Part shown: positions 46,534 through 60,564 of the stretch, in pieces
Position numbering within the stretch: the first letter of the stretch is position 1
Layout of the letters: every line of letters begins with the position of its first letter
From: Nitrospira lenta
GTDB taxonomy: Bacteria > Nitrospirota > Nitrospiria > Nitrospirales > Nitrospiraceae
Length of the DNA stretch: 64,000 nt
Direction of reading: 5' to 3'
Assembly (NCBI RefSeq): GCF_900403705.1
Contig: NZ_OUNR01000001.1
Coordinates: 620,001 to 684,000 of the forward strand
Program-made: the position numbers and the translations under genes
The notes under the pieces: model-generated
The model's input: the letters and a program-made list of their open reading frames with translations, nothing else
Database searches by the model: none
What the model was told of the DNA's origin: nothing

Positions 46534-48024
46534 TTACGAGGCCTTCTTCGACACCCGCTTCACGCCTTGCAAGGCATCGACCACCTGCTCCATCTTCATT
46601 CCGCGCGACGCCTTGACCAGCACGACATCACCGGACACGGCCATCGTTTTGACGGCAGCCGCCGCGGCAACGGCATCGGGCAATTCTTGCACTCTTGCTG
46701 GATCCATCCCCGCCCGGCGCGCACCGTCCGCCAGACCGCGCCCCAACGGCCCGCAGGCGATCAATCGAGAAATGCCCTGCTGCGCCACAAAGGCACCGAC
46801 TTCTTCGTGCATCCGCATCGCACCCGAGCCGAGCTCCAGCATATCGCCCAAGACGGCGATGGTCGTTCGTCCACTCCCCGCCTGAGCCAGCAATTGGACC
46901 GCTGCCTTCATCGACGCGGGGTTGGCGTTATAGCAATCGTTGATCACGCGTATCCCGTGGCTCATGACGACTTGCGACCGCATCGCGGCCGGACGGAATC
47001 GAGACAAGCCCTGCGCAATCACGGCGCCGGACACGCCGAGCACCGTTCCGACTGCGGCGGCCGCCAAGGCATTGGTCACATTGTGGGAACCCTGCACCTT
47101 GATTCGCACGATCGTATGCCGGACCTTCCCCGGAAGAAGCAGCCGGAACATCGTCCCATCACGCCCATCTGACTTTTCGTGCAACGCCCGCACATCAGCC
47201 TTCGGCGAATAGCCGAACGACACCACACGGCATTGGGCTCGCGCGGCCAGATAGTCGAAATACGGATCGTCGGCGTTCAGAATGGCTGTCCCGTCCGGAG
47301 GAAGGAGATCGAGCAACTCCGCCTTCGCCTGCGCCGATCCTTCCATACTGCCGAAAAACTCCAGGTGATCCGGCCCGATATTCGTAATGACGCCGATGGT
47401 CGGGCGAGCGATTTCACAGAGACGCGTCGTCTGCCCGAGGTTATCGACACCCATTTCGATGACGGCCGCTTCATGCCGACCCGTCAATCTCAAGAGGGTG
47501 TGAGGAACTCCGATTCGATTATTGAAGTTGCTCTCCGTCTTCAACACGCGCCAGCGCTGCCCCATCACGCTCGCCACCATTTCCTTCGTGGTGGTTTTCC
47601 CGTTACTGCCCGTCACGGCCACCAGCGGGATATCGAACCGACTGCGGTGATGCGTAGCCAGCTGCTGATAGGCAAAGAGCGGATCGCGCACACCCAGAAT
47701 GAACGGGGGTGCCGACTTGGGCCCTGCCGTCAACAGCGCCGGGGGAACCACGTAGCTGTCATGCACAATGGCACCGACCGCACCTCGGGACAGCGCCGCC
47801 GCCACATAGTCATGGCCGTCGAATTTATCGCCGCGAATCGCGATGAACAGATCTCCGGCACGGATCGCCCGCGAGTCGAGGCTGAGCTGTCGAATGCGTT
47901 GCTTCGCCCACCGAGGCGCATCGCCGGAAAGCATTTTGACGCTGATCACTTCTCGAAGTTCTTCACCGGTTAACAGCGGCATGATCATCCCAATCTGTGA
48001 CAGAGCCTCGCTTGAATCAGGCAC
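46534..48024 (-). CDS. murF: UDP-MurNAc-tripeptide-D-Ala-D-Ala ligase
   Basis: Adds D-Ala-D-Ala to complete the pentapeptide. 496 residues from GTG 48024, which overlaps the murE end; ATG 47988 or 47982 ([12 protein letters not shown]) may be the true start and gives a more typical length. ATP loop [46 protein letters not shown]. The Lys-rich end is unremarkable. Confidence 0.95.
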
Positions 48025-49522
48025 AATGCGTCAATTCACGAATCGCATCACGGGCGACTTCGCGATCGTCGAAGTGAAATTTCTTCGTCCCGATAATCTG
48101 ATAGTCTTCGTGCCCCTTCCCGGCAATGAGGACCATATCGCCGGGCCGAGCGGCCCGCATCGCCGTCGCGATCGCTTCACGGCGATCGGCCACCTTCTGA
48201 TAGGTCACGTGGGATCGCTGTTGCAGCGCATCCCGCACGCCGACTTCCACTTCATCGAGAATCGCCAGGGGATTTTCCGTGCGCGGATTGTCCGAGGTGA
48301 GAATGACCACATCACTCTGCTGAACGGCGGCGCGACCCATTTTAGGCCGCTTCCCGCGATCGCGATCTCCCCCGCATCCAAACACTGTGATGATCCGGCC
48401 TGCTTTCAATGCCTGCGCCGCCGTCAGCAACCGAACCAGCGCGTCTTCGGTATGGGCGTAGTCCACGACAACCGTGAACGGCTGCCCGGCCATGACGCGC
48501 TCGAATCGACCGGGCACATTGGTGACGCGGGTCACGGCCTGCCGCACCTGGTCGATCGTGGCCCCTTCGTGCAAAGCCACGCCGATCGCCGCCAACATGT
48601 TATAGACGTTGTGTTCGCCGACCAGATGACTCTCGACCGGAAAGGTCCCAGCAGGCGTTGCCGCCATAAATGTCGTGCCGTCGAGAGAGAGACGAACCTG
48701 TTCCGCTCGAAGATCGGCCTTATCCTTGATGCCATAGGTCCACACCGGCACGGCACAAAGAGACGCGATGCGGGCGCCGCTTGGGTCATCGCTGTTGACG
48801 ATGGCCCGCTTGTTCGGCTTCTGGATCCCGGTCAATCCCGTGAAGAGCCGGAGCTTGGCCTGAAAATATTCTTCCATCGTCTTATGAAAATCGAGATGGT
48901 CCTGGGTCAAGTTGGAGAACACGGCCACGTCGTATTCAGTCCCACTCACCCGATCTTGCGCGAGCGCATGCGATGACACTTCCATCACCGCTGCCGAGCA
49001 TCTGCCGTCGACCATCTTCTTCAAAAGCTGCTGCAACTCCAACGCACCTGGTGTGGTATGGGAGGCAGGGATAATCTCGCTCCCGATTTGATAGGCCACG
49101 GTTCCGATCAAGCCGACTCGGCCTCCAATCGATTCCAACAAAGCCTTGCAGACATAAGAGGTGGTCGTTTTCCCATTCGTGCCGGTGATGCCGATCATCC
49201 GCAGCCGTCCTGAGGGATCGCCATAAAACCGGCTTCCCAAATATCCCAGCGCCTTGCGTGAGTCCGCCACCCGCACGTACGAACGGTCCACTTCGGCTAC
49301 CGCCTCCTGCATGACTACGGCCGCCGCGCCAGACGCGAGCGCAGACGAGATATACCGGTGACCATCAACCTGCTCGCCCTTGACGGCCACGAACAGACTT
49401 CCCGCCTGCACGGCTCTAGAATCATCCGTGATCGCTGTCAGCGACACCCGGAGATCCCCCGCTTGCTCAAGAACCTTCACCTGCCCACGTAATGACTGCA
49501 CTAATTCTTCGAGGGTCATCAT
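48017..49522 (-). CDS. murE: UDP-MurNAc-tripeptide synthetase MurE
   Basis: Adds the third stem residue. The 501 residues include GITGTNGKTTTSYVCKALL, HTTPGALELQQLL, NLTQDHLDFHKTMEEYF and the substrate-specifying motif TSDNPRTENP; DNPR is typical of meso-diaminopimelate-adding enzymes, so the wall is predicted to be DAP-type. ATG 49522 (MMTLEELV) lies 13 bases after ftsI. Confidence 0.96.
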   Translation of the reverse strand: MMTLEELVQSLRGQVKVLEQAGDLRVSLTAITDDSRAVQAGSLFVAVKGEQVDGHRYISSALASGAAAVVMQEAVAEVDRSYVRVADSRKALGYLGSRFYGDPSGRLRMIGITGTNGKTTTSYVCKALLESIGGRVGLIGTVAYQIGSEIIPASHTTPGALELQQLLKKMVDGRCSAAVMEVSSHALAQDRVSGTEYDVAVFSNLTQDHLDFHKTMEEYFQAKLRLFTGLTGIQKPNKRAIVNSDDPSGARIASLCAVPVWTYGIKDKADLRAEQVRLSLDGTTFMAATPAGTFPVESHLVGEHNVYNMLAAIGVALHEGATIDQVRQAVTRVTNVPGRFERVMAGQPFTVVVDYAHTEDALVRLLTAAQALKAGRIITVFGCGGDRDRGKRPKMGRAAVQQSDVVILTSDNPRTENPLAILDEVEVGVRDALQQRSHVTYQKVADRREAIATAMRAARPGDMVLIAGKGHEDYQIIGTKKFHFDDREVARDAIRELTHCA

Positions 49523-49535
49523 CTTATTACCCGAC

Positions 49536-51254
49536 CTATCGACGGTTTGACGCCATAGCCAGCTTGACCGGCTCGTCCGATGAGACTCCAAGGTAGTTCA
49601 ACACCTGCTCGCCCACGCGGCGGAAAACGGGCGCGGCCACGGTTCCGCCCCAAGACTCACCCTGCGGCTCATCGATCACCACGATCATCGCCAATCGGGG
49701 ATTGTCGGCGGGAACAAACCCAACAAAGGAACCGACAAACAATGTCGAAGAGTAGCCGCCGGTGCGCGGATCGATCTTCTGCGCCGTGCCCGTCTTGCCA
49801 GCCACTCTGAATCCAGGGATTGCGGCCTTATTTCCAGTCCCATCGGTCACCACGCCTTCAAGAATCGACGTCACCGTCCGCGCCGTTTCAGGCGACACCA
49901 CGCGACGCTTGACTTGCGGCAAAATCTGACGAAGAGTTTTCCCCTGCGCATCACGCACTTCGGACACCACGTAGGGCTTCATCAAGACTCCGCCGTTCGC
50001 CAGGGCCGCCACGGCAGACACCATCTGGATCGGCGTGACACCGATTTCTTGCCCCATCGAAATTGACGCCAATGACCGGCGCCCCCATTCCCCAGGATGC
50101 TTGACCAATCCGCCGACCTCCCCAGGGAGGTCGATTTCGGTCTTTTGCCCGAATCCAAAGGCCTGCAGATACCGATAGAGACGCTGATCGCCCAGCGCCA
50201 TCCCGGTTTTGGCCGCGCCGATGTTGCTCGACTTCTGAATCACCTGCGAAAACGTCATCCAGCCGAGCTTTTCGTGGTCATGGATCACGGTATTCGCAAT
50301 CGTCATCCGGCCGTTTTCGCCATACAGCATGGTACTCGGCTTCATGACTTTCTCTTCCACCGCTGCAGCCGCCACGAGCGCCTTCATCGTCGAACCAGGC
50401 TCATAGGTATCCGTCAACGCCCGATTCCTCCAACGATCCGCCGTCAGAGATGACATGGCATTCGGATCGAACCGAGGACTGATTGCCAACGCCAAAACGG
50501 CACCGGTCTGAGGATCGAGCACAATGACGGTGCCTGATTTGGCCCGTGACTTGGTGACCGCTTCTTCTAATTCTTTTTCAGCGATGTACTGAACGACTTC
50601 GTCGATCGTGATGACTAAACTATGACCGGCGGCGGGAACTTGCTCGGCCTGGCCTTTCGGGAACACCGTCCGACCCATAGCATCGCGCTGCAAAACCACA
50701 ACTCGCTTTTCGCCATGGAGTTGCGACTCATACCGCCGCTCAATCCCCTCAAGCCCTTCTCCATCCATCCCGGCGAATCCCAACACATGAGCCAGAAGCG
50801 GACCCTTGGGATAGAACCGACGGCCCTCCATCACCAGCCCGATCCCCTCCATCGGCATATGCTCCAGGCGGTGCCCCTGCTCAGGATCCAACTTCCTGGC
50901 CAGCCACACGAAACTGCGATCCTGTCGCAGCTTCTTCTCCAACTCATCGGTTCGAATGCGCAGCACCGGAGAGAGAGACCGAGCCGTCTTGGCAGGACTT
51001 TCGAGCGCAGTGGGGATACCGAACACGGAAGGCACTTCCATATTCATGGCGAGCACTTTGCCATGACGATCTACAACAGTCCCTCGAGCACCCTCCAAGG
51101 ACACCGTTTTCTGATGTTGACGGTCAGCCTTGGCCGTGAGCTCAGCCGCCTGTAAGACTTGCAGGCTCACCAACCGAAACAGCACCACCGCAAACCCGCA
51201 GAGCATCATCAGCAACAACACGTACCGTCTGGCCCGTGACGGCGAACCAGTCAC
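49536..51254 (-). CDS. ftsI: Septal peptidoglycan transpeptidase FtsI (PBP3)
   Basis: 572 residues: an N-terminal membrane anchor (YVLLLMMLCGFAVVLFRLVSLQ), a dimerisation domain, then the transpeptidase with the active-site Ser in EPGSTMKALVAAA near 288, SSN near 341 (QKSSNIGAAKTG) and KTGTAQK near 486. No PASTA domain is seen. GTG 51254 overlaps the ftsL stop by one base (TAGTG). Confidence 0.96.
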   Translation of the reverse strand: MTGSPSRARRYVLLLMMLCGFAVVLFRLVSLQVLQAAELTAKADRQHQKTVSLEGARGTVVDRHGKVLAMNMEVPSVFGIPTALESPAKTARSLSPVLRIRTDELEKKLRQDRSFVWLARKLDPEQGHRLEHMPMEGIGLVMEGRRFYPKGPLLAHVLGFAGMDGEGLEGIERRYESQLHGEKRVVVLQRDAMGRTVFPKGQAEQVPAAGHSLVITIDEVVQYIAEKELEEAVTKSRAKSGTVIVLDPQTGAVLALAISPRFDPNAMSSLTADRWRNRALTDTYEPGSTMKALVAAAAVEEKVMKPSTMLYGENGRMTIANTVIHDHEKLGWMTFSQVIQKSSNIGAAKTGMALGDQRLYRYLQAFGFGQKTEIDLPGEVGGLVKHPGEWGRRSLASISMGQEIGVTPIQMVSAVAALANGGVLMKPYVVSEVRDAQGKTLRQILPQVKRRVVSPETARTVTSILEGVVTDGTGNKAAIPGFRVAGKTGTAQKIDPRTGGYSSTLFVGSFVGFVPADNPRLAMIVVIDEPQGESWGGTVAAPVFRRVGEQVLNYLGVSSDEPVKLAMASNRR

Positions 51255-51577
51255 TATCGCCTCCCGTTCAACACATCATTCCTGGCAATCCGCAGTTCCA
51301 CAGCGGATGCAGGCGAGTCCTTCGTTTTCGATTGCACCATCACGACCTGACCAGGCTGGGGCAAGCTCATACCGAATTTTTCCGTGGCGACTTTTGCAAT
51401 CCGATCGGGCGAACTCAGCGCCGAGAATTTCACCTTGAGCTCATCGCGTTCGCGCTCCAACACCACCTTCTCATGCTTCAATCGTTCAACCTGATAACCC
51501 AGGCGCACCATATCCACCCGCTCCCACACAAAGACGAAGACGAGACAGAGCCCGGCCGTCACTGCCAGCATTTTCAT
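51254..51577 (-). CDS. ftsL: Cell division protein FtsL
   Basis: 107 residues: one membrane segment (MLAVTAGLCLVFVFVW) and then a coiled coil (YQVERLKHEKVVLERERDELKVKFSAL) ending in a typical RIAKVATEKFGMSLPQPGQVV. It bridges FtsQ/B and FtsW/I. The start at ATG 51577 overlaps the rsmH stop (ATGA). Family identity rests on topology, size and position. Confidence 0.88.
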   Translation of the reverse strand: MKMLAVTAGLCLVFVFVWERVDMVRLGYQVERLKHEKVVLERERDELKVKFSALSSPDRIAKVATEKFGMSLPQPGQVVMVQSKTKDSPASAVELRIARNDVLNGRR

Positions 51578-52578
51578 TGGGCAGACTCCTTTGACAGACG
51601 CTCGGCAACCCGCAGCTTGGCGCTTCGCGCGCGCGGATTCGCCTGACACTCGGCTTCGGAAGGGACTTGCGGACGCTTAGTCAACACCGCGACCTTGGGG
51701 TGTGGCCGCTCGGCCAGAGAGCGAAACGTGTGCTTCACGATCCGATCTTCGAGCGAATGAAACGATATGACGGCAAGACGGCCACCGGGCCGCAACATAT
51801 CGACCGCATCACGGATCGCCGGCTCAAGCACATCCAACTCGCGATTGACCGCAATACGAAGCGCTTGAAATGTTCTCGTTGCACAGTGGATATGCCCGTG
51901 CCGATATGCGACGGGAACGGACTCCTTGATCACCGCCGTCAATTCTTGCGTCGATGACAGTGCATTCCGTTCACGCGCACGAACAATGGCACGCGCAATA
52001 CGCCGGGAGAATCGCTCCTCGCCATACTGGAAGATGAGATCTGCCAATTCGGACTCGGGCAACCTACCCACCAACTCTCCGGCCGTCATACCCGTTGATT
52101 GATCCATGCGCATATCGAGTGGTCCGTCTTCCCGAAAACTGAATCCCCGATTCGAGTCGTCTAACTGCGGCGACGACACGCCAAGATCAAAGAGCGCACC
52201 GTCGACCTCTGGAATATCGACACTCCGCAATAACTGCCTCACGTCAACAAAGTCCCCCTTGAGCAGAATTGCCCGACTGCCAAATCTGGCAAGCCTGTTA
52301 CGAGAGTACGCAAGCGCTTCTTCGTCCCGATCAATGCCGATAAGGACGGTTCCATCCCCAGCCCTTTCAAGTAGCCGCTCACTATGCCCACCATACCCCA
52401 CCGTACCGTCAACAAAAGTCTCTGACCTGTCCGTGACAAGCCAAGCTGTTATTTCATCAAGAAAAACAGAAACATGCCTCGGCTTGCTCGATATTTTATC
52501 CTCACCACTTATATCCACTTTCCCCCACTTGCGAGCCGAGTATACTCCCGTTGAACTCCTTGTCAATAGCAAATTCAT
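51574..52578 (-). CDS. rsmH: 16S rRNA m4C1402 methyltransferase RsmH (MraW)
   Basis: SAM-dependent methyltransferase modifying the ribosomal P-site. The 334 residues contain HVSVFLDEITAWL, FVDGTVGYGGHSERLLE (SAM site), GIDRDEEAL, ALFDLGVSSPQLDDSNRGFSF and VISFHSLEDRIVKHTF. The first ~34 residues are atypical; GTG 52518, with GGGGG just upstream, could be the real start. It is the first gene of the dcw cluster. The 264 bases upstream hold neither mraZ nor TGGG repeats, and no convincing promoter. Confidence 0.95.
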   Translation of the reverse strand: MNLLLTRSSTGVYSARKWGKVDISGEDKISSKPRHVSVFLDEITAWLVTDRSETFVDGTVGYGGHSERLLERAGDGTVLIGIDRDEEALAYSRNRLARFGSRAILLKGDFVDVRQLLRSVDIPEVDGALFDLGVSSPQLDDSNRGFSFREDGPLDMRMDQSTGMTAGELVGRLPESELADLIFQYGEERFSRRIARAIVRARERNALSSTQELTAVIKESVPVAYRHGHIHCATRTFQALRIAVNRELDVLEPAIRDAVDMLRPGGRLAVISFHSLEDRIVKHTFRSLAERPHPKVAVLTKRPQVPSEAECQANPRARSAKLRVAERLSKESAQ

Positions 52579-52842: not shown

Positions 52843-53874
52843 ATGACGCCTACTACCCGCAATAACCTCCTAACCAGCATCTTTGCACTGCTCTTTCTCC
52901 CAGCTCCCCTCACCCCGGCTCCTCCAGCCGACGCAGCGCCGCTTCTTGAGTTTTGCGAACACAGCTCTCCCGACCAACAGCTCAGAGCCTCAAAGGGTAC
53001 TGCCGGCTGTGTTCCCCTCATGGAAAAGAAAGATCCATCCGCATCAGATGGCCGCACACCTCAAGAGCCGACCCGCCAACTGAAGATCGACAATCTGCAG
53101 TTGGAAGTCACGACCTTTCTCCAGAAGTACAACCAGTTCCTTGAGTGCTGTCGCACGGACCTAGCAGAGCTGCAATCAGTCGAAGAACTCGGCAATGACG
53201 TCAATGAATTGCTCACCATGGCTCAGTCCGGCCTCTTCAGCGAACATATGAAGCTCAGAGGGTGGACCCTCGCAGAGCTTCTTCCGCCCGTCGCCAAAGC
53301 GCGCACCGACCTGAAGCGATTGCACGCCAAACTGGAAGCGATCGGCAATGCACGAAACCAACTCGGCCAGCTTGACTATGAATCAGCGGCACACGAATCG
53401 CGCCGCATTCAAGAGATCGAAGATTCTATACAAACAGACTTCCGGGTCCGCTCTCTGCCGGTAGGTCCGAAAACGGGAACTGGTATCGGAGCCGGCTCAA
53501 CCGCCGGCACGAGCATCGGAAAAACTCCGCGATCAGGAACGGATATCGGATCGGGCGGCTCTCAGGGAGGAGATGTCGGAGCATCGCCGCGAAGCGGAGC
53601 AAACATTGGCGCCAGCGGGCCGACCGGCTTTGACATCGGCGCGACCGGCCGCGCAGGAGCGGATATCGGTGAGTCCCGCTTGAATTCAGATCAATCCGCG
53701 GTGGGATCAAGCTTGCAGCAGTCTACGGTAGGATCGAGCATCGGGGATACGGCGGTAGGATCGAGCCTGGGCCAGTCGACCATCGGGTCCAGCTTGAGCG
53801 ACACCTCCGTCGGTTCATCCCTCGGCGGATCATCAGTCGGATCAAGCCTACAGAATCGCAGCACCACTCGCTGA
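52843..53874 (+). CDS. Exported protein with helical domain and C-terminal Gly/Ser repeat region
   Basis: 343 residues, family not recognised. Residues 1-32 form a signal peptide (LLTSIFALLFLPAPL...ADA). Residues ~75-205 are predicted helical (DNLQLEVTTFLQKYNQFLECC, LPPVAKARTDLKRLHAKLEAIG). From 212 on there are seven 10-residue repeats of form GxxIGxxxxx, then six 9-residue repeats of form (S/T)xVGSSLxx, ending RSTTR. A regular Gly-Ile/Val-Gly spacing suggests a narrow beta-solenoid or surface fibre; that is inference. No SD site is evident before the ATG. It stands alone, divergent from the dcw cluster. Confidence 0.72.
   Translation: MTPTTRNNLLTSIFALLFLPAPLTPAPPADAAPLLEFCEHSSPDQQLRASKGTAGCVPLMEKKDPSASDGRTPQEPTRQLKIDNLQLEVTTFLQKYNQFLECCRTDLAELQSVEELGNDVNELLTMAQSGLFSEHMKLRGWTLAELLPPVAKARTDLKRLHAKLEAIGNARNQLGQLDYESAAHESRRIQEIEDSIQTDFRVRSLPVGPKTGTGIGAGSTAGTSIGKTPRSGTDIGSGGSQGGDVGASPRSGANIGASGPTGFDIGATGRAGADIGESRLNSDQSAVGSSLQQSTVGSSIGDTAVGSSLGQSTIGSSLSDTSVGSSLGGSSVGSSLQNRSTTR
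53476..53856 (+). repeat. Two tandem coding repeat blocks (30-bp and 27-bp units)
   Basis: Seven 30-bp units at 53476-53685 encode GTGIGAGSTA, GTSIGKTPRS, GTDIGSGGSQ, GGDVGASPRS, GANIGASGPT, GFDIGATGRA and GADIGESRLN. After a 3-residue joint, six 27-bp units at 53695-53856 encode SAVGSSLQQ, STVGSSIGD, TAVGSSLGQ, STIGSSLSD, TSVGSSLGG and SSVGSSLQN. Synonymous differences between units argue for selection on the protein rather than recent copying. Confidence 0.85.
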
Positions 53875-53897: not shown

Positions 53898-54926
53898 TTA
53901 CGGTCGCAGCTCATTCCCGGCATACAGCGGCGGCATCGACTCCCACGTCTCCCCCGCATCGTTACTCCGATACAACCCGCTCCCGTTCGTTCCCGCATAG
54001 AATAGCTTCGGATCCGACGGGCTCTGTGCGATCGTTCTGATGTTGGTTGTGGCAAACCCGCTGTTGATCGAGGTCCACGTTGCACCGCCGTCTTCACTGC
54101 GATGCACACCATCACGCCCTGTAATGTAGACCACGCCTCTGCGAGCCCGATCAAGCGCCATCGCGATGATCATCTGATCCGCAAGCGACTCCCCGATCCG
54201 CTTCCACGACGCAGCCGCATCCGTTGACTTGTAGAGGCCGGCCAGCGTCGCCGCATAGACGGTATCCGGCTCGTAGGGATCGACCTGTACCGACGTCACA
54301 TTCAACGCCCGCGACGTCTTCACCATGCCGGCCGGCACCAATCCGTTGTTTACCTTTTCCCAATGCTCCGCCTGATCGATCGACTTGTATACGCCCCCGC
54401 TCGTCCCCGCATACAGGATCGCCGGGCGCGTCGGATCCATGCCCAGCGTCACGACCATCAGCACTTCCTTCATTCCCTCCATCTTCTTTGACCAGTTCTC
54501 ACCGCCGTTCTTGGTCTCATAGACCCCCATCGTGGTGGCGAGAAAAATGTGCTGGCTGTCGGCCGGATCGAAGAGGAGTTGATTCACCACCGACGTAATC
54601 GTGGCATCATCAAGGCCCGAGCGCATCGATACCCATCGCTGGCCGCCATCGTGACTCTTGAAAACCGCATCGCCTTTCGTCCCCGCGTACACCGTCGCGG
54701 GATAGGCCGGATCGATCGCCATCGAGATCACGCGTGAGTGACTCATTCCCCTCGATAAATTCGTCCAGGTCTGCCCGGCGTCACGCGTCTTATAGATATA
54801 GTCGTTCGTCGCGACGTAAATGATGTCAGGATTCTTGGGGTGAAGCTGGAGCACGACAATGGGGTCGCTGCGATTACAGCCGACCAGACAAACGAGAAGA
54901 AGAAGCAGAGAGAGAAAGCGGTTCAT
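53898..54926 (-). CDS. Lipoprotein with BNR/YCF48-type beta-propeller repeats
   Basis: 342 residues. The N-terminus ends in the lipobox LVGC (Cys 17), so it is a lipid-anchored envelope protein. Repeats of the type IYVATNDYIYKTRDAGQTWTNLS, VYAGTKGDAVFKSHDGGQRW and FYAGTNGSGLYRSNDAGETWES occur about every 45-50 residues, giving a seven-bladed sialidase-like propeller. Such proteins are usually binding or assembly factors; no catalytic residues are obvious. It lies 24 bases downstream of yajQ. Confidence 0.82.
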   Translation of the reverse strand: MNRFLSLLLLLVCLVGCNRSDPIVVLQLHPKNPDIIYVATNDYIYKTRDAGQTWTNLSRGMSHSRVISMAIDPAYPATVYAGTKGDAVFKSHDGGQRWVSMRSGLDDATITSVVNQLLFDPADSQHIFLATTMGVYETKNGGENWSKKMEGMKEVLMVVTLGMDPTRPAILYAGTSGGVYKSIDQAEHWEKVNNGLVPAGMVKTSRALNVTSVQVDPYEPDTVYAATLAGLYKSTDAAASWKRIGESLADQMIIAMALDRARRGVVYITGRDGVHRSEDGGATWTSINSGFATTNIRTIAQSPSDPKLFYAGTNGSGLYRSNDAGETWESMPPLYAGNELRP

Positions 54927-58034: not shown

Positions 58035-58433
58035 ATGCCATCAGATGCACCGGCTTCGCAGCCGTCCGGGAAAGATCGCCGCGAATATTATCGGATCACC
58101 GTCGCTCTGCCCATCCGCATTCAGCCCGAGTCGGACACGACGGAGGGTGTGCTCATCGAGCAATCCGTCAACATCAGCGGCGGCGGCTTCGGCATGACGG
58201 TTGCCACAGTCTATCAACCCGACGACATCCTCTCCGTTACGATGCGCTTGCCCGACTATGGCCTCTTCACATCCTTAGCCGAAGTCGTGCGCCTCGATGC
58301 TCTCCCCTATCCCGAAGGAACCTATCGCCTCCACGCCCGCTTCGTCAGGATGACCTCACAGGACCGTGAAGTGTTGATCCGACATATTCTGATATTTCAA
58401 CGAAACCACCTGCAAGCACACTACTCTGCGTAA
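58035..58433 (+). CDS. PilZ-domain protein
   Basis: 132 residues. DRREYYRITVALPIRI (residues ~14-29) carries the Arg-rich ligand stretch and VNISGGGFGMTV the N/D-x-S-G-G-G element, so this is a PilZ domain likely to bind cyclic di-GMP. The C-terminus includes RFVRMTSQDREVLIRHILIFQRN. It stands alone between a degraded stretch and the M48 protease gene, with 199 bases following that carry only the promoter at 58572-58600. Confidence 0.8.
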   Translation: MPSDAPASQPSGKDRREYYRITVALPIRIQPESDTTEGVLIEQSVNISGGGFGMTVATVYQPDDILSVTMRLPDYGLFTSLAEVVRLDALPYPEGTYRLHARFVRMTSQDREVLIRHILIFQRNHLQAHYSA

Positions 58434-58632: not shown

Positions 58633-60564
58633 ATGTCCGATACACAGTTTGAGCAATTGGTGCGCCGTCTCGAGGCCTACGCCTCACAACATCCGGCTCC
58701 ATACAAACGGAAGATCGCGCTGACCGCCGCTCTTGGCTATGCCTATGTGCTGACCTCCCTCGGGCTGGCATTGGGCGTCAGCGCCTGGCTGATTCTTTCC
58801 TTCGTAGATGGAGAATCGAGTTACCTCAGCTCCATCCAGCTGCTGTTTGGCCTTGGAATCCTGGCAACCATCACCCTTCGAGCCTTCAGGGCCCGCGCCA
58901 CCCCGCCGACGGGATATGAGGTGTATCGGGAAGACACGCCGCGCCTCTTTCTCCTGATCGACAAGCTGACGACGGCGCTGGACACGCCGCCGCTTCACCA
59001 TGTGCTTATCGTCAACGACCTGAATGCCGCCGTCTCACAACGGCCGCGCCTCGGCATCTTCGGTTGGTACCAGAACTATCTGTTGCTCGGCCTGCCGCTC
59101 ATGCTGGCGATGACACCGGCTCAATTCCGTGCCGTACTCGCACATGAACTCACCCATCTCAGCCCTCACCACGGACGCTTCTCCCGATGGGTCTATCGCA
59201 CGCGCATCGCCTGGTCGAGTTGGCTGAAAGAACGCCACGCCCGTGATCAGTGGGGTTCGGCGCTCTTTCCAAAATTTCTGGACTGGTACGCTCCATTCTT
59301 CAACGCCTGCTCATTCGCTCTGGCCCGCGCGCAGGAGTACGAAGCCGATCGCCAGGCTGCCGGACTGGTCGGCCCGCATGCGATGAAGGACGCCTTGGCA
59401 GCACGCCAGGTCATCGCGCGCCTCATGGACGAATTGTATTGGCCCGCGCTGAATCGCCGGACCATCACGAATCCTACACCGCCCGCCTCACATCTCGATG
59501 AACTCATCACTGTGCTGCAGCGCGTCACTCCTCAAGACAGCATTCAGAAGTGGCTGCACGAGGCGATGCAGCAGACCACCAACTATGCCGATATCCATCC
59601 GGCCTTGGCCGATCGACTGGCCGCTTTGGACCAGCTTCCCGAGAAACCCAATGCGCCGGAACCGCCTGCCGACTTTCCCCACGTGCGTGACCCCCATGAG
59701 GCCACGGCCGCGAACTATTATCTGGATGCGCATGCGACCGCGACACGCGCCGCGCTCGACCGCAGTTGGGCGGAATCTGTGGCGGAGGAATGGCAGCAGA
59801 AACACGAAGAAATGGCGGCGGCGCGCGCGCGTTGTCAGTCCTTAAGCGACAAGTCCGCCACCGTCGGGCTCTCGATCAACGAGCTGTGGGAATATGCGTG
59901 CCAAATGGAAGCACTCGAAAGCGGCCGCGCGGCGCTGCCGCTGCTGCAGCAGTTGCTCGCCAAGGTACCGGCTCACGCGGAGGCGAACTTGGCGGTAGGC
60001 CGCCTCTTATTGGCGCAGAACGATCAAGCCGGATTGCTGTATCTGGAGAAAGCCCTGGCAGCGGACCGCAAGGCGGTGATTCCAGCCTGCCAACTGGCCT
60101 CCGGTTATCTGGAACGCCGAGGCAACCACAAAGAGTCCATGCGCTACCGCGTGAAGGCGCAGCGGCAACAGCAACAGCTCCTCGATGCCGAAGCCGAACG
60201 CAGCACCATCAAGCCCGGAGACTCGTTCGAACCGCACGGACTGGCCGCTGAGGTCATGGCCGGTATCGCCGAACAACTGGCCTCAAAGCCCGGCGTCCAG
60301 GCAGCCTATCTGGTCCGCAAGAAAGTCCAGGCCCTGACCAGCATCCCCTGCTATGCGCTGGTCGTCATTCCGCACCGCGCCTGGTACGAGTTGGATGCGG
60401 ATGGCAGCAATCAGGCTCTCCAGGAAAAGATCCGTACGACGGTGACGCTCCCGGAAGACACCTCTATCCTCATCGCGGACCAGCTGATGAAGCACCGGTG
60501 GATCAACACCCTCAAAGCCGTCCCGCAATCCGCCATCCGGTGCACACCCACCGCCGCCTCATAA
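58633..60564 (+). CDS. M48 family membrane metalloprotease with C-terminal helical repeats
   Basis: 643 residues. Two membrane segments lie at about 30-60 and 70-90. The zinc motif HELTH is at about 170 (AHELTHLSPHHG) and the third ligand region EYEADRQAAGLV near 234, as in HtpX/Ste24-type peptidases. From ~440 the sequence is TPR-like (LPLLQQLLAKVPAHAEANLAVGRLLLAQ, LYLEKALAADRK). The last ~100 residues (GVQAAYLVRKKVQALTSIPCYALVVIPH) resemble a small ligand-binding alpha/beta unit that I cannot name. It probably degrades damaged membrane or envelope proteins; substrate unknown. Confidence 0.82.
   Translation: MSDTQFEQLVRRLEAYASQHPAPYKRKIALTAALGYAYVLTSLGLALGVSAWLILSFVDGESSYLSSIQLLFGLGILATITLRAFRARATPPTGYEVYREDTPRLFLLIDKLTTALDTPPLHHVLIVNDLNAAVSQRPRLGIFGWYQNYLLLGLPLMLAMTPAQFRAVLAHELTHLSPHHGRFSRWVYRTRIAWSSWLKERHARDQWGSALFPKFLDWYAPFFNACSFALARAQEYEADRQAAGLVGPHAMKDALAARQVIARLMDELYWPALNRRTITNPTPPASHLDELITVLQRVTPQDSIQKWLHEAMQQTTNYADIHPALADRLAALDQLPEKPNAPEPPADFPHVRDPHEATAANYYLDAHATATRAALDRSWAESVAEEWQQKHEEMAAARARCQSLSDKSATVGLSINELWEYACQMEALESGRAALPLLQQLLAKVPAHAEANLAVGRLLLAQNDQAGLLYLEKALAADRKAVIPACQLASGYLERRGNHKESMRYRVKAQRQQQQLLDAEAERSTIKPGDSFEPHGLAAEVMAGIAEQLASKPGVQAAYLVRKKVQALTSIPCYALVVIPHRAWYELDADGSNQALQEKIRTTVTLPEDTSILIADQLMKHRWINTLKAVPQSAIRCTPTAAS

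Follow-up and report, generated by a model that had tools for sequence, protein, structure and literature searches.

The open reading frame at positions 52843–53874 of the window (the whole 64,000-nucleotide stretch of Nitrospira lenta DNA that was analysed) is a real, family-wide and strongly conserved gene of the Nitrospiraceae. Its predicted product consists of a helical head and a tail of short glycine-containing repeats, and a signal peptide recognized by inspection marks it as an exported protein. The tail was found to be under strong purifying selection, and hence is no dispensable filler; no fold was predicted for it. The family is unnamed in Pfam and NCBIfam, and two forms of the gene occur at one chromosomal locus, apparently exchanged between genera. 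Little is understood of the cell envelope of Nitrospira, a central group of nitrifiers. An exported, near-family-wide gene at a fixed locus is well suited to studies of what sets this envelope apart, and the tail itself is a clean case of strong repeat conservation without a predicted fold.

Layout and predicted structure of the repeat protein

The features of the gene and its two neighbours are as follows.

52843..53874, + strand: whole ORF, exported helical-head/repeat-tail protein of 343 residues (dN/dS well below 1; orthologues in 139 of 147 family genomes)
52843..52935, + strand: putative Sec-type signal peptide, residues 1–31, with a hydrophobic core and ending in ADA before AP (read from sequence)
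52936..53070, + strand: N-terminal region, residues 32–76, with invariant Cys38 and Cys56 (pLDDT below 50, low-confidence model)
53071..53442, + strand: predicted helical domain, residues 77–200, with invariant vicinal Cys102-Cys103 (AlphaFold2; alignment A2)
53467..53676, + strand: seven 10-residue G-x-x-[IV]-G units, residues 209–278 (periodicity analysis)
53677..53694, + strand: spacer RLNSDQ, residues 279–284 (alignment A2, C-termini of relatives)
53695..53856, + strand: six 9-residue units, residues 285–338, a clade-specific extension (unit count in type I orthologues)
51574..52578, − strand: rsmH, first gene of the dcw block, divergent neighbour (conserved position)
53898..54926, − strand: BNR/sortilin-type β-propeller lipoprotein, convergent neighbour (position conserved; kept where the repeat gene is lost)

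Because dN/dS against relatives is far below 1 throughout, the ORF is taken to be translated sequence. The signal peptide of the original prediction was borne out on inspection; a hydrophobic N-terminus is also kept in relatives in sequence comparison, and no lipobox was seen in this region. The tail had been described as seven 10-residue and six 9-residue Gly-Ile/Val-Gly repeats. Self-identity was compared with that of 1000 shuffles of the same composition and confirmed both periods: 0.36 versus 0.12 shuffled at lag 10 (z 6.4), 0.45 at lag 20 (z 8.2), 0.52 versus 0.17 shuffled at lag 9 (z 7.5) and 0.67 at lag 18 (z 8.8). The 10-mers of the window protein are PKTGTGIGAG, STAGTSIGKT, PRSGTDIGSG, GSQGGDVGAS, PRSGANIGAS, GPTGFDIGAT and GRAGADIGES. 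The 9-mers (SAVGSSLQQ, STVGSSIGD, TAVGSSLGQ, STIGSSLSD, TSVGSSLGG and SSVGSSLQN) do not follow them directly, as had been supposed, but are set off by the six residues RLNSDQ; the chain ends in RSTTR. Their consensus is [ST]-x-[VI]-G-S-S-[LI] in the window protein and [ST]-x-[VI]-G-S-[ST]-[LIF]-x-x across orthologues.

AlphaFold2 was run with alignment A1, consisting of eight close sequences. The helical domain of the original prediction was recovered, with helices at residues 74–83, 85–102, 107–129, 143–174 and 179–199 and pLDDT values mostly of 70–94. The proposed thin solenoid or fibre was not: the tail (residues 209–343) has pLDDT values of 31–37 in the full-length model and a mean of 40.7 with a pTM of 0.09 when modelled alone, and neither strand nor helix was present in it in either run on these eight aligned sequences. 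With so few sequences, the low pLDDT is weak evidence for disorder. The charge–hydropathy measure places the type I tail (the form carried by the window protein) on the 'folded' side of the Uversky line (0.469 versus 0.416), where Gly/Ser/Val-rich sequence can fall. The models show no fold for the tail, which may be disordered or may fold only with a partner or ion. Confident disorder throughout the repeats together with absence of conservation in relatives had been named as speaking against the original prediction; disorder is indicated in part, but the tail is clearly conserved. Cys38, Cys56, Cys102 and Cys103 are invariant in the 22 diverse members of alignment A2.

Searches of Pfam, NCBIfam, PHROGs and PDB sequences gave no significant match, in keeping with the earlier statement that no family could be recognized, and literature searches directed at proteomes and core genomes turned up nothing specific on such a protein. 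The sole PHROG match is weak (E 0.011) and falls in the helical region; a phage tail or fibre protein was rejected on this ground and on the fixed chromosomal housekeeping locus. A structure search with the head (VIA-align) returned generic helical bundles at background level. Among them, the polyphosphate-binding CHAD domain (PDB entry 6qva) is likewise a helical bundle (Z 9.8, 130 residues, rmsd 3.7, 14% identity), but this Z lies within the chance range for such bundles, pentameric channel bundles score equally and CHAD identity was rejected. Even with E values of up to 10 allowed, none of the 22 members matched the Pfam profiles of CHAD or DUF4124, so that a DUF4124-like identity of the N-terminal Cys stretch was also discarded.

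The RTX nonapeptide β-roll (GGxGxDxUx) resembles the window protein in its nine-residue glycine-containing units and in being exported. The latter, however, has a different 9-mer consensus, without GGxGxD and without Asp at the calcium position, and only six units; it showed no sign of a type I secretion signal and gave no Pfam RTX match, and RTX membership was rejected. With the left-handed β-helix hexapeptide ([LIV]-G-x-x-[STAV]-x, or more broadly [LIV]-[GAED]-x2-[STAV]-x) it shares an [IV]-G core, but it repeats with periods of 9 and 10 instead of 6, no strands are predicted and no Pfam hexapeptide match was found, and this assignment too was set aside. The protein instead has the features of a Nitrospiraceae head-plus-repeat-tail family: an export signal, four cysteines, a helical domain, a GxxIG tail that includes GxxIG[DE]SxLN, and the rsmH–BNR locus. 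Short second members of this family, uncharacterised paralogues (L060:5160-5999 and L069:942-1898), have PPTGxEIGTT tails. They share with the window protein the Cys pair, the CC motif, the helical head and 10-residue GxxIG units, but differ from it in their short tail, in lacking the 9-mer block and in lying away from the dcw locus. Beside the L069 copy lie genes whose sequences suggest a heavy-metal efflux pump, namely its RND and membrane-fusion subunits.

Selection, occurrence and genomic locus

Between the window protein and its relatives, dN/dS was 0.02–0.19 for the 10-mers, 0.02–0.11 for the 9-mers and 0.03–0.09 for the head; ω for the tail is mostly 0.02–0.1, as low as that of the head, at pairwise dS values of roughly 0.4–1.5. 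Several dS values are near saturation, which makes the larger comparisons rough. Compared with one another, the 9-mers of the window protein differ at pS 0.70 and pN 0.31. A synonymous difference of about 70% with the motif kept implies that the units are old and held by selection, and not fresh duplications. In the proposed survey of repeat number, exactly six 9-mers were counted in 32 of 33 type I orthologues; the last scores five, its sixth unit being decayed. The number is constant across genus codes g1, g2, g3, g9 and g16, and the array is therefore not freely expanding or contracting. In the 197 9-mer units, position 3 is V or I in 196, position 4 is G in 185 and position 5 is S in all 197. 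Seven 10-mers are in register also in relatives of other genera, some of them interrupted. An 18-residue super-period is present in the window protein but fails across relatives, the even/odd alternation of the 9-mers ranking 288th of 720 unit orders over the 33 orthologues.

Within the family Nitrospiraceae a match was found in 139 of 147 genomes (105 of 109 of good quality). Across the order, 132 of 196 genomes match, all within this family, and none of roughly 60 genomes of the other families carries the gene. A phylum-wide scan based on the diverse alignment A2 matched 77 of 295 genomes, again all in the family, with none among 216 phylum genomes outside it; every genome-scan match is a Nitrospira or a Nitrospiraceae MAG. 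The gene is single-copy in the window's own genome, where the sole other match is weak, chance-like and overlaps a response-regulator gene, and was rejected as a second copy.

G006, G051 and G145 are three of the four good-quality family genomes that gave no match. Losses occur in small genomes (1.7–2.0 Mb). Only a 26-residue remnant is left in G006 (E 0.002), nothing of the gene lies between rsmH and the BNR gene in G051, and G070, although scored as a match, carries a frameshifted gene. In these genomes (loci L080, L082, L083, L084, L085 and L088) rsmH and the BNR gene are kept. An apparent loss in G145 was rejected, the locus being an N-filled assembly gap. A tie to nitrite oxidation was also considered and rejected: G006, G051 and G070 retain molybdopterin-oxidoreductase ORFs that, at 1149 residues, match NXR α in size, and so give no sign that gene loss accompanies loss of nitrite oxidation, with NXR identity here assumed from size and all the ORFs below the model's cut-off.

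The gene adjoins the dcw cluster, as had been noted; rsmH, ftsL, ftsI, murE and murF all lie divergently on the − strand (46534–52578). In nearly all orthologous loci fetched, the order is murF-murE-ftsI-ftsL-rsmH, then the repeat gene, then the BNR lipoprotein, YajQ and CstA, with the dcw genes on one strand and BNR-YajQ-CstA on the other. This divergent/convergent arrangement places the repeat gene in no operon with either side. The BNR protein (53898–54926) has an apparent lipobox, LVGC; since its gene is retained where the repeat gene is lost, an obligate partnership is unlikely. Further along the window, an M48-type peptidase gene with a weak TPR-like C-terminal match (58633–60564) adjoins a PilZ-domain gene (58035–58433).

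Two forms of the gene at one locus

Type I and type II proteins occupy the same locus, are about 30% identical overall and have different tails, of about 73–136 residues depending on the form. Type II tails consist of longer, less regular units such as PTGMDIQDTTL. A core is nevertheless common to the unit types in alignment A2: G-x-x-[IV]-G-x-[ST] in the 10-mers, [VI]-G-S-S-[LI] in the 9-mers and GxxI-x-[DE]-[ST] in type II. A GxxIGDSxLN terminus is retained in nearly all family members. The more distant ones stop there, with a few further residues, whereas the window protein has GADIGESRLN followed by the six 9-mers. We infer that the form ending in GxxIGDSxLN is the older, and that the 9-mers were added in the type I clade rather than lost elsewhere.

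The trees of the head and of the neighbouring genes conflict strongly. All type I sequences fall in a single clade of the head tree (support 100/99 in one tree, 0.999 in another). Concatenation of six neighbouring genes gives a tree in which the window's genus has its type II members nested among type I genomes, in a clade of 25 genomes comprising only these two groups (support 0.998). For murE, ftsI, ftsL, rsmH, BNR and YajQ, g1 type II is closer to g1 type I than to genus g18, and for CstA it is nearly equidistant from the two; for the repeat gene the order is reversed (2.75 changes per site from g1 type I versus 1.32 from g18). Forcing type I into one clade on the neighbour data was rejected (ΔlogL 448, AU p 1.4e-36), as was the neighbour grouping when imposed on the head data (ΔlogL 259, AU p 1.5e-5). 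The neighbour evidence used comprised the distances, the missing splits of A+B from C and the nested concatenated clade; splits of A+C from B were left out because they hold trivially whenever the g18 group forms a single clade. Replacement of the repeat gene alone, its breakpoints falling between rsmH and BNR, would account for this most simply. The two forms might also go back to an ancient duplication followed by differential loss, but no genome with both types was noticed.

Possible roles of the tail

We tentatively prefer to see in the product a Sec-exported envelope protein of the Nitrospiraceae, with a tail serving either as an extended tether or as a fixed set of short docking motifs. 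The cysteines would form two disulfides pinning the N-terminal stretch to the helical head, and the protein would remain in the periplasm or on the envelope. The tail may be an extended array of motifs with the core [IV]-G-x-[ST], binding several copies of one partner, or it may span the distance between the head and a partner. The number of motifs would matter in either role, and each of the two tail forms would be adapted to its own partner or partner variant. Strong selection, the fixed unit number, a tail with no predicted fold, the invariant cysteines, the conserved locus and near-universality in the family were counted in favour; retention of the BNR gene on gene loss, the Uversky 'folded' side and the eight-sequence basis of the pLDDT were counted against.

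A thin β-solenoid or β-roll with 18–20 residues per turn from two units, perhaps formed on ion or surface binding, seems unlikely. Self-identity is indeed higher at two units than at one in both blocks (0.67 at lag 18 versus 0.52 at lag 9; 0.45 at lag 20 versus 0.36 at lag 10), the V-x-S-x-L spacing could place three side chains on one strand face and the unit number is fixed; but no strand was predicted (AlphaFold2, eight-sequence alignment, pTM 0.09), the even/odd 9-mer alternation over the 33 orthologues is unremarkable and Pfam gave no RTX, hexapeptide or pentapeptide match. Diverged forms at one locus amid neighbours that keep their own history are a pattern common for surface proteins, and would suit an exposed adhesin or fibre that meets phages or other organisms and is diversified by gene exchange. 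Such a role is nevertheless decidedly unlikely: the repeat number is constant rather than variable, no sorting signal, autotransporter or anchor domain was found, and head and tail are equally conserved, with an ω so low that diversifying selection between close relatives is not indicated. That the tail has no specific role and is low-complexity sequence on a functional head is hardly credible; the low pLDDT and the very different tails of the two forms would fit, but the low ω, the fixed unit number and the near-universal GxxIGDSxLN terminus speak against it, and the selection result already largely refutes it.

The tail might also span or prop an unusually wide Nitrospira periplasm, although we regard this as improbable. 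An extended periplasmic space, the site of nitrite oxidoreductase, is reported to be common to the described members of the order (PMC13049253); the gene is family-wide, the protein is exported, tail length is fixed and 135 residues fully extended would by arithmetic reach tens of nanometres. Against this, neither a membrane anchor nor a peptidoglycan-binding domain was found at either end, tail length differs between the two forms, and the trait is ascribed to the order (PMC13049253), whereas none of the order's other families that were searched carries the gene. This restriction to one family weakens the link to the extended periplasm, which is offered as a suggestion. It would be a long shot to see in the protein an envelope element of the Nitrospiraceae in which a motif array of fixed length sets periplasmic distance or stoichiometry and of which two exchangeable forms are traded between genera at one locus; if true, this would provide a molecular handle on a poorly understood cell envelope.
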